Source: Gammaproteobacteria bacterium
GTDB taxonomy: Bacteria > Pseudomonadota > Gammaproteobacteria > Arenicellales > JAHEKD01
Direction of reading: 5' to 3'
NCBI GenBank assembly: GCA_024638545.1
Contig: JAHEKD010000035.1
Coordinates: 1 to 10,695 of the forward strand
DNA: 10,695 nucleotides
The translations under genes were made by a program, and so were the position numbers. How positions within the stretch are numbered: the stretch's first letter is position 1; each line of letters opens with the position of its first letter. Positions 1-7,400 of the stretch are shown one piece after another. The notes below the pieces were generated by a model. That model had not been told where the DNA came from. It searched no databases and was given only the letters and a program-made list of their open reading frames with translations.

Positions 1-391
1 CTCCGTTCTCATTCCGCCACTGGTGTTATGCCGCCTGAGGCTGTGGCGGCGGCCGGGAGAGCCTTATGGCCATTGTTTTGAGGTTCTGGACGATAGCGGC
101 GAGGTGGAATTCGTCTCGGGCACCGGACAGGCCGCGTAATCGCAGACGCTCGAACCGGTGATGGGTCTTGAGATGGCCAAACCGCATCTCGACCTTCTTG
201 CGGTCATCCCAGGAGCGTTCGAAGGCGGGTGTCCCCACCAGAGATCGGGCGACATCTCGGGCGGCTTCGTTGACATCGCGTGGGACCTTGCGCACTGGTG
301 CCTTGGGGCAGCATCGCTGCTTGAGCGGGCAGTGTTGGCAATCGGCCTTGCGCGCGCGATAGAGAACGGTTTTGCCGTCATGGACCCGGCC
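1..391 (-). mobile_element. Remnant of an insertion sequence (IS1182-like), 3' part of the transposase and flank
   Basis: This block is much richer in G and C than the rest of the window: 40 of the first 60 bases are G or C. It contains the C-terminal part of a transposase on the minus strand. The transposase stop lies at 26-28, so the outer end of the element should lie at or just beyond the left edge, but no terminal inverted repeat can be identified. The right boundary falls inside the transposase reading frame, somewhere in 380-405, where it meets cox1 sequence. An intact insertion would show an IS end there. The element is therefore deleted, or joined artificially. The IS1182 assignment is from memory of the protein family. 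Confidence 0.75.
26..391 (-). pseudogene. DDE transposase, C-terminal fragment (N-terminus missing)
   Basis: About 120 residues of genuine transposase remain, against roughly 450-550 for a complete IS1182-type enzyme. Visible landmarks are a start motif [10 protein letters not shown], a cysteine cluster ([11 protein letters not shown]) typical of the zinc-like region in these transposases, and the block [11 protein letters not shown] followed by [16 protein letters not shown]. The glutamate in KKVEM is the likely last acidic residue of the DDE triad, and the other two are lost. The open frame continues to 442, but residues encoded from about 392 to 442 are the reverse strand of cox1 and not transposase. 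The fragment cannot be active. Whether it comes from decay in the genome or from an assembly join cannot be decided here. Confidence 0.85.
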
Positions 392-1261
392 GGTGGTGGC
401 GATCCGGTGTTGTATCAGCATATTTTCTGGTTCTTCGGTCATCCGGAAGTCTACATCATGATTTTGCCTGCTTTCGGCATTATTTCCCAGATTATTCCGA
501 CCTTCTCCCGCAAAAAGCTGTTCGGCTACGAGTCAATGGTCTTCGCCACAGCGGGAATCGCGTTTCTCTCGTTCATTGTCTGGGCGCACCACATGTTTAC
601 GGTGGGCATGCCGCTGGCCGGTGAGCTGTACTTTATGTATGCCACCATGCTGATAGCCGTGCCGACAGGCGTTAAGGTCTTTAACTGGGTGGCAACCATG
701 TGGCGTGGATCAATGACCTTCGAAACACCCATGCTCTATGCAGTAGCGGTGGTATTTCTTTTTACCATCGGCGGGCTCTCAGGGTTAATGCTGGCAATCG
801 TGCCCGCGGATTTTCAGTACCACGATACCTATTTCGTTGTTGCACATTTTCATTACGTGCTGTTTTCAGGTTCAGTCATGGCAATGATGGGCGGTGTCTT
901 TTACTGGATTCCCAAGTGGACCGGCCATATGTACAACGAGAAACACGGCAAGATACATTTCTGGCTGACCGCCATTTTCTTCAACATCACCTTTTTCCCG
1001 CAACATTTCTTAGGTTTGGCGGGCATGCCGCGACGTATCCCTGATTACAATCTGCAGTTTGCGGAATTTAATTTCATGTCCAGCGTTGGCGCAATGGGTC
1101 TGGGATTGACGCAAATTTTCTTTATCTACATCATCTACAGCACCATTAAAGGCGGTAAAAAAGCCACAACGGAAGTCTGGGAAGGTTCAGAGGGTCTGGA
1201 ATGGACAGTGCCGTCACCAGCACCTTACCACACCTTTGAAACCCCGCCGGTTGTGAAATAA
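380..1261 (+). CDS. ctaD: Cytochrome c oxidase subunit I, 5'-truncated (C-terminal ~294 residues)
   Basis: This is the C-terminal part of the catalytic subunit of an aa3-type oxidase, an inner-membrane proton pump that reduces O2 to water. Recognisable cox1 begins at [13 protein letters not shown], just after 380. The CuB ligand and its cross-linked tyrosine are present in HPEVY, the two further CuB histidines in WAHHMFTVG, the K-channel lysine in PTGVKVFNW, and the heme a3/heme a histidines in [10 protein letters not shown]. The N-terminal ~250 residues are missing, including the first heme a ligand and the D-channel aspartate. The frame stays open leftwards to 158, but those 74 codons are antisense transposase, so a 367-aa prediction would be chimeric. 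ATG 380 lies at the junction and is not a natural start. As drawn, the product cannot form an oxidase. Confidence 0.93.
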
Positions 1262-1387: not shown

Positions 1388-1409
1388 GCCTAAAGGCGCA
1401 ACTATGCTG
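1376..1409 (+). terminator. Strong RNA hairpin between the small cox peptide and ctaG (attenuator or processing site)
   Basis: The arms CAGCATAGTTG (1376-1386) and CAACTATGCTG (1399-1409) are perfect 11-bp reverse complements. Inside them, one A-G mismatch is followed by GCC/GGC around a TAAA tetraloop, giving a stem of about 14 pairs. The sequence after it (TTCGCTTTG) is only weakly T-rich, so full intrinsic termination is doubtful. Partial termination, or mRNA stabilisation that sets the ratio of oxidase subunits to assembly factors, fits as well. The left arm includes the last codons and stop of the 37-aa gene. Confidence 0.6.
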
Positions 1410-1448
1410 TTCGCTTTGATCTCTGGCAGCAGGAACTTGTAAATACAG

Positions 1449-1973
1449 ATGTACAAGGTTTTAGTTTCCAAATTACTGGTCTTCACGCTGTGCATGTTTG
1501 CATTCGGTTACGCGCTGGTGCCGCTTTACGATTTATTTTGCGAGGTTACCGGTATTGGCGGAAAAACCGGCCAGATCGAGCAATCCGTTGCTGAACGTGA
1601 ACAGATCGTTACCGATCGCCTGGTTACCGTGGAGTTCACCAGTGTTTCTACATCAGGGATTCCGTGGGAGTTCAAACCCGAGGTGAATAAACTCGATGTC
1701 CATCCCGGTGAAATAAACGAAATCATTTACTCTGCCACTAATATGAGTTCCCGGGCGGTAACGGGCCAGGCGATTCCTAGCGTGACCCCGGGGCTGGCGT
1801 CGAAGTATTTTAACAAAACAGAGTGCTTTTGTTTTACCCAGCAAACACTACAGGGGAAAGAACAAAAAGATATGCCGGTGCGCTTTATTATCGATCCGGA
1901 CCTGCCTGACGACGTGCATACGGTAACCTTATCCTACTCATTTTTTAATGCAGAAAAATATGCAGAGAATTAA
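1449..1973 (+). CDS. ctaG: Cytochrome c oxidase assembly protein CtaG/Cox11 (copper chaperone for CuB)
   Basis: Cox11 proteins deliver copper to the CuB site of subunit I from the periplasmic side of the inner membrane. The 174-aa product has one N-terminal membrane span at about residues 7-27, the conserved PLYDLFCEVTG with Cys31, and the family copper motif CFCF (Cys126, Cys128) in TECFCFTQQ. DMPVRFIIDP follows at about 141-150. Length is slightly short for the family but the domain appears complete. The start ATG lacks a strong ribosome site; GCAGGA lies about 15 bases upstream. The gene sits between the cox1 remnant and cox3, as is usual. With cox1 broken, its usual partner would be missing unless another copy exists. 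Confidence 0.95.
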   Translation: MYKVLVSKLLVFTLCMFAFGYALVPLYDLFCEVTGIGGKTGQIEQSVAEREQIVTDRLVTVEFTSVSTSGIPWEFKPEVNKLDVHPGEINEIIYSATNMSSRAVTGQAIPSVTPGLASKYFNKTECFCFTQQTLQGKEQKDMPVRFIIDPDLPDDVHTVTLSYSFFNAEKYAEN

Positions 1974-2064
1974 GGCGAACGCTGGGCGCAAATTAACGGA
2001 TGATGTAGAATATCGCGTCAATACAAGAGACATCTCATTAACAAAGAGGTTTTAGGGATTTAAG

Positions 2065-2940
2065 ATGAGCGGATCAAACGATTATTATGTGCCCCACTCA
2101 AGCCAGTGGCCCATTGTTGCAACAATTGGACTGTTTGTACTGTTTTTTGGTTTTGCACTGCTTTTGAACGATATGGCTGCGGGCAAATGGATCATGCTTG
2201 TCGGTGTCGGTGTCTTAATCTATATGCTGTTTGGCTGGTTTGGCACCGTTATACGCGAGAGTGAGGGCGGTTATTATAACAGCCAGGTTGATACCTCCTT
2301 TCGCATGGGCATGGGCTGGTTTATTTTTTCTGAAGTTCTATTTTTTGCAGCCTTCTTTGGCGCCTTGTTTTATGTGCGTAATCTGGCAGTTCCCTGGCTG
2401 GATGAAGCAGAATTATTATGGCCGGGTTATGACGGTGGCTGGCCTACTGCAGGTCCTGAAGGACCGCAGGTACTGGGGCCGGACACGAAGGTGCAGTCAG
2501 CCGGCTTTTTCTCCACGATTGGCGCCTGGGGGCTGCCGATGTGGAACACGATTATACTGTTAACCTCCAGCGTGACATGCACCTTTGCGCACTGGGCCTT
2601 CGTCAAGGGACAGCGTGCACGAATCATTTTCTGGCTGGCGGTGACGGTGGCCCTGGGTTCCACGTTCTTATACATCCAGGCCTATGAGTATCACGAAGCG
2701 TACACCGTCTACGGTCTGACGCTGGGCACCGGAATTTATGGTTCAACATTCTTTATGCTGACAGGGTTTCACGGACTGCACGTGACAATAGGTACGTTAA
2801 TACTTCTCATAGTCATGCTGCGCGTGATCCGGGGGCATTTTACCGAGCAAAACCACTTTGCATTTGAAGGTGCAGCCTGGTACTGGCATTTTGTTGATAC
2901 TGTCTGGCTGGGATTATTTGTGTTTGTCTACGTTTTATAA
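2065..2940 (+). CDS. ctaE: Cytochrome c oxidase subunit III
   Basis: Subunit III of the aa3 oxidase is a seven-helix membrane protein that binds lipid and stabilises proton uptake by subunit I. The 291-aa product has several hydrophobic spans. It carries the conserved glutamate in FSEVLFFAAFFGALFYV (Glu90), the motif TGFHGLHV in the C-terminal half, and the terminal YWHFVDTVWLGLF block. A hydrophilic insert rich in Gly and Pro (about 119-145) separates the first helices from the rest, as is common in proteobacterial subunit III. AGGGA at 2054-2058 gives a ribosome site six bases before the ATG. The gene is intact. It is the last gene of the first plus-strand run, and the next gene converges on it. 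Confidence 0.96.
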   Translation: MSGSNDYYVPHSSQWPIVATIGLFVLFFGFALLLNDMAAGKWIMLVGVGVLIYMLFGWFGTVIRESEGGYYNSQVDTSFRMGMGWFIFSEVLFFAAFFGALFYVRNLAVPWLDEAELLWPGYDGGWPTAGPEGPQVLGPDTKVQSAGFFSTIGAWGLPMWNTIILLTSSVTCTFAHWAFVKGQRARIIFWLAVTVALGSTFLYIQAYEYHEAYTVYGLTLGTGIYGSTFFMLTGFHGLHVTIGTLILLIVMLRVIRGHFTEQNHFAFEGAAWYWHFVDTVWLGLFVFVYVL

Positions 2941-3164
2941 GCTCTTTGTCATCAGTGACATAATTGCTGAAGACTTACATTACGAATACCACGTATATAG
3001 CGGCAGCAGTCAATTTAGCGCAGATTCCGCTGCTGGACACGCCGAATGTGTGAATACGATGCAGTCAACACATATCCGCGTGGGACAGTGGGCTGGGTGT
3101 CAGCAATAGCTTGTCTTATTAATTGAATTTTTTCAGCACCTGATTACCATTCATATTCAACGCT

Positions 3165-4825: not shown

Positions 4826-5758
4826 ATGAATATGCAAGCAGCGGCAAGCAAAGAGCAGCATCTGTCATTAAAGACGAAGATGCAGCAATTCTATGAACTC
4901 ACAAAACCCAGAGTTGTAGCCTTAATTATTTTTACAGCTATTGTTGGCATGTTTCTTGCTGTTGAGGGATTGCCATCGTTTTCCCTGTTTTTCTGGGGAA
5001 CATTGGGTATCGGAATGGCTTCAGCAGCGGGTGCTGCAATCAATCAACTGTTTGATGCCGACGCTGATTCAGTGATGAAGCGCACGCGTCTAAGACCGCT
5101 GCCAACCGGCCAGTTGACAACAACCCAGGCAATGGGTTTCGCATTACTGCTTGCAACGGCGGCGATGCTGATATTGATTCTAAAGGTCAATACGCTTACG
5201 GCAATCCTCACATTTATCTCATTAATTGGTTACGCTGTCATATATACCGTGTACCTGAAACACGCGACGCCACAGAATATTGTTATTGGTGGTGCCGCCG
5301 GTGCTGCGCCGCCCGTGTTGGGCTGGGCCGCCGTTACCGGCGAGGTGACCTCGGACGCCTTACTTTTATTTCTTATTATTTTCGTATGGACGCCGCCACA
5401 TTTCTGGGCACTGGCCCTTTATCGCTATAAAGATTACGAAAAAGCCGGGATTCCAATGTTGCCGGTGACACACGGTCAAAAATTTACGCGTTTAAATATC
5501 CTGCTTTATACACTGTTACTGTGTGCGGTCTCGATAATGCCTTTTGCCGTGCAGATGAGCGGTTGGCTATATTTAGTGGGTGTGATCGCCTTGAATGCTG
5601 TGTTTCTGTATTATGCCATCAAGCTTTATCGACGCTACAATGATCTGCTGGCAAGGAAAACCTTTGTCTACTCAATCCAGTACCTGGCCATGCTATTTGC
5701 ATTAATGCTGGTTGATCATTATTCGCCTTTGCTCGGACGGTGGCTGGAAACCCTTTGA
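4826..5758 (+). CDS. ctaB: Protoheme IX farnesyltransferase (heme O synthase)
   Basis: The enzyme transfers a farnesyl group from farnesyl diphosphate to the vinyl group of heme b, making heme O, the precursor of heme A. It is an integral membrane UbiA-family prenyltransferase. The 310-aa product shows ELTKPRV near the N-terminus, the first aspartate-rich motif NQLFDADAD (73-81) followed by KRTRLRPLPTG, and the second-half motif YKDYEKAGIPMLPV (201-214). About nine hydrophobic spans are visible. I prefer ATG 4826, one base after the upstream stop, with GGTGAAG at 4807-4813 as a possible ribosome site. GTG 4808, overlapping the upstream gene, and ATG 4832 are in-frame alternatives. No ctaA lies beside it. 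Confidence 0.95.
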   Translation: MNMQAAASKEQHLSLKTKMQQFYELTKPRVVALIIFTAIVGMFLAVEGLPSFSLFFWGTLGIGMASAAGAAINQLFDADADSVMKRTRLRPLPTGQLTTTQAMGFALLLATAAMLILILKVNTLTAILTFISLIGYAVIYTVYLKHATPQNIVIGGAAGAAPPVLGWAAVTGEVTSDALLLFLIIFVWTPPHFWALALYRYKDYEKAGIPMLPVTHGQKFTRLNILLYTLLLCAVSIMPFAVQMSGWLYLVGVIALNAVFLYYAIKLYRRYNDLLARKTFVYSIQYLAMLFALMLVDHYSPLLGRWLETL

Positions 5759-5825
5759 TGTACATCATCTGATATCAAACAGGCAAATAGCGCTATACCG
5801 GCAGAATCTCATTTTGCATCTGGCC

Positions 5826-6042
5826 AGCCCGCATTTCTCACCGGACTTCGTAGCGAGACGGTTAAAGGATGCGTCCTGTATGGGTTTTACGACCACAGGC
5901 CGGCATTATGTTATCAGCATATGTGCCGGCACAAGGGCCCGCAGGCATCGTTGACGCTATGTCGAGGACCCTGGCCGAGTAAAATGCCCACAGGGCGCGG
6001 CAAGGGACCGTCGCAGTAGTAGGGTGGTGAGAAATGCGGGCT
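5826..6042. repeat. Perfect 17-bp inverted repeat enclosing a long nested fold (structured RNA or MITE/IS relic)
   Basis: AGCCCGCATTTCTCACC at 5826-5842 is the exact reverse complement of 6026-6042. Moving inward, more segments pair in the same nested order: GACGGT 5857-5862 with ACCGTC 6007-6012, GCGTCCTGT 5871-5879 with ACAGGGCGC 5990-5998 (one G-T), and GGG-TTTTAC 5882-5890 with GTAAAA-TG-CCC 5979-5989. The tip holds a hairpin GCCGGCA/TGCCGGC (5899-5905/5924-5930) with TATG/CATA inside, and a smaller stem at about 5946-5960. There is no T-run after the right arm, so it is not a simple terminator. No target-site duplication is obvious at the ends. The pairings were read by eye, not computed. 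Confidence 0.7.
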
Positions 6043-6149
6043 AAGGTCTCAACGGTGATGACCGGACTGGACGGATTTTAAAGACTTCTGAGAGCCACGT
6101 TCGGTTAAAAAAAGCAGGATTACAGGCTAAAACCAGAGGATGACTAATT
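6043..6149. other. ackA upstream region with further short stems; no gene
   Basis: This completes the 391-base gap between ctaB and ackA, which holds no convincing reading frame. GGTCTCA (6045-6051) can pair with TGAGA-G-CC (6089-6096) with one bulge. AGCC/GGTT around ACGTTC (6093-6106) gives a small stem before a run of A. AGAGGA at 6135-6140 is the ackA ribosome site. I could not find a convincing -35/-10 pair. The tight stems next to the large inverted repeat suggest one continuous structured region, but this is inference. Confidence 0.4.
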
Positions 6150-7400
6150 ATGAATATACTCGTCTTAAACTGCGGGTCATCATCATTAAAGTTTCAAATT
6201 ATTGACACCGATTCGCAGGCACTGGTAAGTAACGGCGATCGCTGCCTGGTCAAAGGCGAAGTTGAGCGTATTGGCTCGCAATCCTTGATCCAATACGAAG
6301 TGCCGGGCTTACCTACCACCAAAAAATCCGATCCTATCGCCAATCACAAGAGTGCTATTGAAATGGTTTTATCCTGGGTGATTTCAAAAAAATCAGGAAT
6401 AAAGCAAATTAACGCATATGCGGATATTCACGCTGTCGGACACAGAATTGTCCACGGTGGTGAACATTTTCGCAAATCCATATTAATTGATCAACAAGTC
6501 ATTGAGGGCATAGAAGATTGTGTCGAGCTGGCACCACTGCATAACCCAGCCAATATTAAAGGCATCAAAATCGTGACGCGAATACTTGGACCAAAGCTGC
6601 CTCAGGTTGCAGTATTTGATACAGCATTTCATTCGACCATGCCCGAGCAGGCGTATCTGTACGGATTACCCTATGAGTTCTATCGTCGATATAAAATCAG
6701 GCGCTATGGATTTCACGGCACCTCGCATCGGTTTATAGCCTACCAATATCGTAATCTGACTGGCCTTGAAAAATTTCAGACCAATATAATTTCATTACAT
6801 CTGGGTAACGGCTGTTCTGCCTGTGCAATTCAGGCAGGAATTTCAATCGACACCTCAATGGGCTTTACACCACTGGAGGGTTTGTTGATGGGAACTCGAA
6901 GTGGCGATGTTGACGCTTCTATTTTAGAGTACCTGCATTTAAAAGAAGGCATGAACTTCAATGATCTGGATACAATGCTGAACAAGCGTTCCGGTCTTTT
7001 GGGCATATCCGGATTAACCAGCGACATGCGGGAGTTGCTGGAAGAAGAATCCGAGAAACAGGACAGGCGGGCGAGGCTGGCTATTGAGATCTTTTGCAGG
7101 CGAATTGCACGATATATTGGTAAATATTTTATTGAGATGAACGGCGAAATTGATGCCATCGTATTCACCGGCGGGATTGGTGAAAACAGCGCGACGATCC
7201 GAAACCGGGTATGTGCACAACTGGCATGCCTGGGCATCACCATCAGTGAAAAACTAAACCGGCAATTTATTAATGACCAAAAAGGTATAATCAGCGTGGC
7301 TGAAAGCAAGATTGATGTTTACGTCATTCCCACGAACGAAGAGTTAATGATCGCCAGAGATACATACAAAGTCATTAACAAAGCGCTAAGCGAGCCGTAA
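6150..7400 (+). CDS. ackA: Acetate kinase
   Basis: Cytoplasmic enzyme that interconverts acetyl phosphate + ADP and acetate + ATP. The 416-aa product carries the full family signature: NCGSSSLKF at 7-15, GHRIVHGG with Arg99, FDTAFH with the catalytic-base candidate Asp157, YGFHGTSH with His189, HLGNG with Asn220, EGLLMGTRSGD with Arg250, FTGGIGEN (339-346) and TNEE with Glu397. It is slightly longer than the usual ~400 residues. The adenine-site region reads GNGCSACAI where many enzymes have GNGASAAAI, a conservative change. AGAGGA ends nine bases before the ATG. No pta is adjacent, so the source of acetyl phosphate (pta, or a phosphoketolase) must be elsewhere. The polyphosphate kinase gene follows after 131 bases. 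Confidence 0.97.
   Translation: MNILVLNCGSSSLKFQIIDTDSQALVSNGDRCLVKGEVERIGSQSLIQYEVPGLPTTKKSDPIANHKSAIEMVLSWVISKKSGIKQINAYADIHAVGHRIVHGGEHFRKSILIDQQVIEGIEDCVELAPLHNPANIKGIKIVTRILGPKLPQVAVFDTAFHSTMPEQAYLYGLPYEFYRRYKIRRYGFHGTSHRFIAYQYRNLTGLEKFQTNIISLHLGNGCSACAIQAGISIDTSMGFTPLEGLLMGTRSGDVDASILEYLHLKEGMNFNDLDTMLNKRSGLLGISGLTSDMRELLEEESEKQDRRARLAIEIFCRRIARYIGKYFIEMNGEIDAIVFTGGIGENSATIRNRVCAQLACLGITISEKLNRQFINDQKGIISVAESKIDVYVIPTNEELMIARDTYKVINKALSEP

Follow-up and report, generated by a model that had tools for sequence, protein, structure and literature searches.

The question raised by this locus is what a 217-nt nested palindrome-like fold (positions 5826–6042) represents upstream of ackA-ppk2 in the window, the stretch of 10,695 nucleotides analysed here. 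The first-pass annotation had offered three readings: a noncoding RNA, a long leader controlling ackA-ppk2, or a non-autonomous transposable element. We conclude that the window copy is probably a MITE, a DNA transposon without a transposase of its own, that its ends are of the IS1380 type and that its fold would serve its own spread.

A folded element upstream of the acetate kinase gene

The 217 nt fold at -110.1 kcal/mol, where dinucleotide shuffles give -76.7 (sd 4.2); the z is -7.93 and 0 of 200 such shuffles fold as well, confirming that the nested fold is beyond chance. Folded as DNA, the same 217 nt give a z of -6.09. The interior without its outer arms still beats chance, at a z of -3.33, with 1 of 200 shuffles equalling it.

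We used the ends and flanks of 68 elements from the source genome to delimit the whole element, a 213-bp form of the rod family, to 5828–6040 on the plus strand. Its left 15-bp terminal repeat CCCGCATTTCTCACC (5828–5842, plus strand) is identical to both ends of the IS1380 element L116, and the right repeat (6026–6040, minus strand) is the inverted copy. The element ends had been placed at 17-bp repeats: the perfect arms at 5826–5842 and 6026–6042 are real, but the true repeats are 15 bp, the arms being longer because the outer AG/CT is part of the CTAG-like target. The target flanks are CCAG on the left (5824–5827), which is imperfect relative to YTAR, and CTAA on the right (6041–6044).

The interior rod (5843–6025, plus strand) matches our covariance model R1 with 76.4 bits (E 1.7e-19), a match to be read with the knowledge that alignment A1 holds two 176-bp relatives from the same genome and the model holds one. 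Within it lie the conserved 5′ internal-loop motif CGTAGCGAG (5849–5857) and, opposite to it, the conserved 3′ motif CGCAGTAG (6012–6019), both on the plus strand; the 5′ motif occupies nearly invariant columns of alignments A1 and A6, from which the 3′ motif is also drawn. Alignment of the source-genome forms indicates that the 213-bp form differs from the 176-bp rod by a GC-rich hairpin insert of 37 nt (5896–5932, plus strand), which is the tip hairpin of the first-pass annotation. The apical hairpin region of the conserved rod, followed by the motif GTCGAG, is found at 5945–5966 (plus strand).

No coding explanation had been seen for this stretch and we find none: an 80-aa mechanical frame (5712–5954) enters the element, and the consensus has short frames only. 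A scan of 5700–6200 likewise bears out the reported lack of a terminator tail, with no terminator-like site on the sense strand, one weak terminator match on the minus strand (6000–5988) and one weak promoter match on the minus strand near 6153–6180. The neighbours are all on the plus strand, with a UbiA-family (cyoE-like) gene upstream and acetate kinase followed by a PPK2 gene downstream. Elsewhere in the window, a DDE_Tnp_1_6 transposase fragment (26–442, minus strand) overlaps a frame (158–1261, plus strand) running into a COX1 gene that is matched only from profile position 176 on; the overlap reflects either insertion within the oxidase gene or a join made during assembly.

Dispersed copies and their target sites

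The source genome is a 3.06-Mb draft in 549 contigs that is 75.6% complete. At least 40 copies at 95–100% identity were found among 217 first-look candidates, and R1 matches 138 interiors among 150 candidates scored. The 15-bp end with at most one mismatch has 142 + 135 matches, compared with 0 for the reversed pattern. By size, the 68 elements (67 without one duplicate; two nested pairings were also dropped) comprise 51 of 213 bp, 4 of 209/214 bp, 11 of 172–178 bp and 2 of 87 bp, with 33 in one contig orientation and 35 in the other. The shortest variant (L043:387–420, contig C4) is a 34-bp pair of inverted ends with 4 bp between them and is perhaps a minimal deletion product. In four copies (L021, L029, L089:1840 and L090) an aberrant left end, ATATACGCATTTCTCACC, replaces CCCGCATTTCTCACC.

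Of the 67 elements, 47 have YTAR at the left flank, 47 have it at the right flank, and 36 have it at both. Identical 4-mers flank 27 of the 67 elements, where shuffled partners lead to an expectation of 10.7 and a maximum of 20 in 2000 shuffles; they are absent from the other 40. Target-site duplication is thus found in the family and is not intact at the window copy, whose two flanks are unequal.

By a crude frame call, 24 of the 67 elements lie between convergent frames, 20 between co-directional and 4 between divergent ones, 10 overlap a frame and 9 are at a contig edge. In 17 of 67 elements (for example L003, L008, L014, L015 and L023) the flank TAR doubles as the stop codon of an open frame 100 or more codons long, versus 54 of 1652 other nearby YTAR sites. 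This excess fits the purging of harmful insertions and is no proof of targeting. A preference for YTAR, in some cases at a stop codon, goes some way to explaining why the genome tolerates this number of copies. Among genes that read into an element within 300 bp, the two element orientations are equally frequent (38 vs 38), a result that lends no support to a role in host transcripts.

IS1380-type ends and a candidate mobiliser

Several IS1380 loci share the ends of the element. At L116 both 15-bp ends are exact, with CTAG on both sides, around an IS1380 transposase (1406–3143). The transposase loci L114 (one end mismatch) and L059 (two mismatches per end) also have CTAG on both sides, the transposase locus L060 has one exact end, and L040 carries an exact end running into the same sequence as the L060 end. 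At L301, in an Eisenbacteria MAG with 25 rod matches, a full-length transposase is accompanied by an exact end that has CTAA beside it and lies 236 bp away from the match to the gene. L058 to L060 are IS1380 by NCBIfam, the ends of L058 being of type CCCGGATATTGCACGA. Across the order, YTAR plus the end is present in 12 of 109 genomes, the source genome included. Past the ends, comparison of the interior with IS1380 loci gave no convincing similarity.

Since IS1380 elements elsewhere share the ends beside CTAG, an IS1380-type transposase is the likely mobiliser of the element in trans, as judged from sequence. No intact IS1380 transposase is present in the 75.6% complete draft of the source genome. 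The candidate parent there was rejected: it is a 68-residue fragment adjoining a scaffold gap. A transposase match was obtained in 6 of 18 other carrier genomes, in 0 of 4 carrier genomes from the phylum scan (IS1380 transposase), and not in the isolate Acanthopleuribacter pedis. Draft assemblies lose multicopy IS.

Taken together, the proposal of a non-autonomous transposable element is borne out. The element is 213 bp long, lacks a transposase gene, and has 15-bp inverted repeats, dispersed near-identical copies and, in the family, target duplications; its ends are identical to those of an autonomous IS1380 element (L116).

The rod in distant bacteria

When named genomes were scanned for YTAR, end and RG, at least 116 stretches were obtained, and 43 of the 80 classed among them hold short paired elements. 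Sixty elements longer than 70 bp fall by interior similarity into one group of 40 and another of 11 that includes the window's element. Members of the window's group of 176–178 bp occur in MAGs labelled Thiohalobacter, Holophagae, Thermoanaerobaculales, Actinomycetota, Myxococcales, Nitrospira and Gammaproteobacteria. R1 adds MAGs of Planctomycetota, Vicinamibacteria, Fermentibacteria and Eisenbacteria to the rod carriers, and a rod of ~176 bp recurs in MAGs labelled Acidobacteriota too. MAG phylum labels may be wrong; A. pedis KCTC 12899 (Acidobacteriota), with 57 R1 matches, is a cultured isolate. The Fermentibacteria MAG G482 (4.1 Mb, the genome of L222) has 112 R1 matches among 150 scored candidates, in several subfamilies. 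R1 thus names repeats with tens of copies in draft genomes of several groups.

R1 matches were found in 20 of 20 genomes, a figure that gives no prevalence because 18 of the 20 were picked on a known match. The family is rare: strict filters, with 7 candidates scored in each genome, recover it from 5 of 398 phylum genomes, the source genome included. Other element lengths are 56, 87, 116, 125, 189, 223, 247, 256 and 295 bp, and the constant length of ~176 bp is partly due to choice, since A1 members were chosen near 176 bp and with a visible motif.

The group of 40 is a second MITE group with the same 15-bp ends and another interior, found in relatives of the order and in other bacteria (L033–L056, L161, L168, L185, L197 and others), often with a GTAGC/GCTAC or CATAGC/GCTATG apical hairpin. 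Two members, L200 and L203, are weak R1 matches (24.8 and 38.1 bits), so the two MITE groups may be related.

Covariation, strand and decay

Alignment A1 holds the 13 sequences found by their ends and selected as above, aligned with MAFFT. Alignment A6 holds 26 interiors, many of them found by R1, which favours intact pairing. A1 is therefore the cleaner covariation test. RNAalifold predicts 53 pairs in the 13 sequences, 31 of them with two-sided compensated change. With one member's fold as reference structure, a choice that favours covariation, 84.2% of cells are paired in the 13 sequences compared with 69.4% in shuffled controls and at most 50.8% in slid controls, which preserve relatedness; the covariation score is 0.421, where shuffling gives 0.179 (sd 0.013) and sliding no more than 0.147. 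The 26 interiors have 75.7% of cells paired compared with 58.7% in shuffled controls, two-sided changes at 47 of 53 pairs, and a covariation score of 0.476 versus 0.196 (sd 0.011) shuffled and at most 0.146 slid. None of 500 shuffles reaches any of the five measures in either test. The covariation check suggested by the first-pass annotation thus gives compensatory change beyond chance in both sets.

In all 13 and in all 26 sequences the plus strand gives the better fold, and the alignment fold energies for reverse versus plus are -40.2 vs -68.6 (13 sequences) and -3.2 vs -21.3 (26 sequences). RNAalifold pair cells include 85 G-T and 6 A-C in the 13 sequences, and 72 G-T and 13 A-C in the 26, for which shuffled composition gives an expectation of 96.7 G-T and 60.1 A-C. 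Pairs predicted on both strands give small, mixed numbers (15 and 3; 0 and 2). The fold is therefore strand-specific in a way that points to selection on the single-stranded plus strand, as RNA or DNA.

Copies within the source genome behave differently from diverged lineages. In 55 of them (median 97.7% to the consensus; the set covers elements of 205–216 bp and still holds one duplicate), changes in paired cells are compensatory in 1 case, one-sided in 47 and broken in 129; paired and unpaired columns of the interior vary to a similar degree (1.30 vs 1.46 changes per column). By comparison, 15 of the 112 Fermentibacteria copies, from several subfamilies, have 44 compensatory, 48 one-sided and 25 broken changes, an excess of compensation that arises partly by selection, these 15 being among the best R1 matches. 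Because recent copies decay while diverged lineages keep the fold, selection would act on spread and not on each locus: multiplying lineages probably retain the fold while single recent insertions drift.

Dispersed copies had been expected to indicate a MITE and covariation at one locus an RNA. Both signals are present. The noncoding-RNA option may also hold, given that the fold covaries across distant bacteria and is strand-specific, but it would then describe the mobile element and not the window locus.

Rods with other ends

R1 contains no terminal repeat, and the ends of its matches can be compared. Both standard ends are present within 3 mismatches in 25 of the 32 R1 matches examined (of 33, one of 17.6 bits being omitted; several are at loci used for the model). 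Matches at L276, L296, L280 and L288 have a decayed, shifted or single end, and L303 is cut by a contig end. Rods with other ends are found at L289 (CCCGGACTATTCATG) and L290 (CCCGGAATATGCATT). CCCGTCTTATTCAT ends are present on L313, L314 and L317, less perfectly in the last two, L316 has a different short repeat as ends, and L315 has no visible repeat. The rod thus persists while the terminal repeats differ in a few carriers. The CCCGTCTTATTCAT end also occurs on four viral contigs, where it lacks a good inverted partner and tblastn gives no match to a transposase.

How the fold may serve the element

In the mechanism we propose, an IS1380-family transposase acting in trans would cut at the element ends and paste at YTAR sites. 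Where such a site coincides with a stop codon, duplication of TAR would keep the stop intact. The folded plus strand, as RNA or single-stranded DNA, would serve the element's spread, with possible roles in transposase recruitment, excision or escape from host control. We infer such a role because diverged lineages keep the fold and fresh copies in one genome lose it freely, a pattern that suggests that the rod helps the element spread.

The rod could be an ancient selfish structured RNA of ~146 nt that, in different bacterial groups, has come to sit between the ends of one transposase lineage or another, the folded core rather than the transposon ends being the long-lived unit, and its conserved internal-loop and apical motifs serving mobility as transposase cofactor, regulator or ribozyme. 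We consider this joint reading a serious prospect that falls somewhat short of even.

Alternatively, the plus strand may fold as a single-stranded DNA hairpin in the lagging-strand template, promoting excision or copying by the transposase. The strand-specific fold, the perfect arms and the z of the DNA fold all agree with such a hairpin, but contig orientations are equal (relative to contigs, not to replication) and the many G-T pairs fit RNA at least as well, leaving this explanation rather unlikely.

An ordinary MITE, derived from an IS1380 element by internal deletion, with a fold that follows incidentally from its inverted ends together with an inverted duplication, would account for ends and targets that are the same as those of IS1380 elements, for drift of the source-genome copies regardless of pairing, and for the variants of 34 and 87 bp. 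It is at odds with the strong covariation and nearly constant ~176 bp length across labelled phyla, with the strand asymmetry, with an interior unlike IS1380 loci past the ends, and with rods that have other ends, and we judge it improbable.

A long leader or regulatory RNA of ackA-ppk2 is hardly credible: the element does share a strand with the ackA frame and end 109 bp ahead of it, but more than 100 copies are located elsewhere, copies decay neutrally, and in the one same-genus genome searched (G001) cyoE, one frame, ackA (79% identity) and ppk2 follow each other without the element. In G001, YTAR plus the end is not matched at all, and the interior is matched once, on a different contig (L290). 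A later chance effect of the window copy on ackA may nevertheless exist.

The preferred reading is thus a MITE whose fold would serve its own spread. Bacterial MITEs are usually seen as decayed IS leftovers with incidental hairpins. Here the hairpin is the conserved part, on one strand and across labelled phyla, and the terminal repeats can differ. This leads to a testable claim, namely that a non-coding fold participates in DNA transposition, or that a structured RNA is a long-lived passenger of transposases.

Comparison with known systems

The proposed Rfam scan came back empty for the window at gathering score (Rfam 15), and ten related loci gave tRNA only. In permissive mode the window had two matches with E 4.2 and above, and L202 had seven weak matches (best E 0.003) to plant and animal microRNA hairpins, at no more than a third of the gathering score. 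ERIC resembles the element in tip and end and was rejected: with filters off, three real ERIC loci reach at best 4.9 bits with R1 (E 0.33 in 1260 bases). A blastn search of plasmids with L314 and L202, both relatives of the element, gave no copies, and an exact search of genome contigs with the window's left end found none in a collection that may leave out the source and near records.

No description of the element appears in the accessible parts of PMC4133298, PMC11578231, PMC2267715, PMC9330008, PMC10969869, PMC2229807 and PMC10813416, in a literature search that covered few subscription journals. IS1380 does not occur in the main text of the 2024 MITE review (PMC10969869).

By its sequence, the element behaves as a MITE and groups by its ends with IS1380-mobilised elements, from which its conserved fold appears to set it apart. 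We know of no such rod in piggyBac elements. The piggyBac target resembles the YTAR of the element: in the parts of PMC10813416 available to us, these eukaryotic elements use TTAA with variants such as CTAA and TTAG, and IS1380 transposases serve as an outgroup.

IS1380-family IS (Pfam PF13701, NCBIfam NF033539) share with the element the 15-bp ends (exact in L116), the CTAG/YTAR target and the 4-bp duplication. Unlike them, the element has no transposase gene, and its rod is dissimilar to the compared IS loci past the ends. The Correia/NEMIS, RUP and ERIC MITEs, as described in the portions of PMC2229807 and PMC10969869 available to us, are also short and non-coding, with terminal repeats, target duplication, a mostly intergenic location and a long stem-loop. 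In contrast to those MITEs, the element has a fold that is kept by compensatory change across labelled phyla, on one strand.
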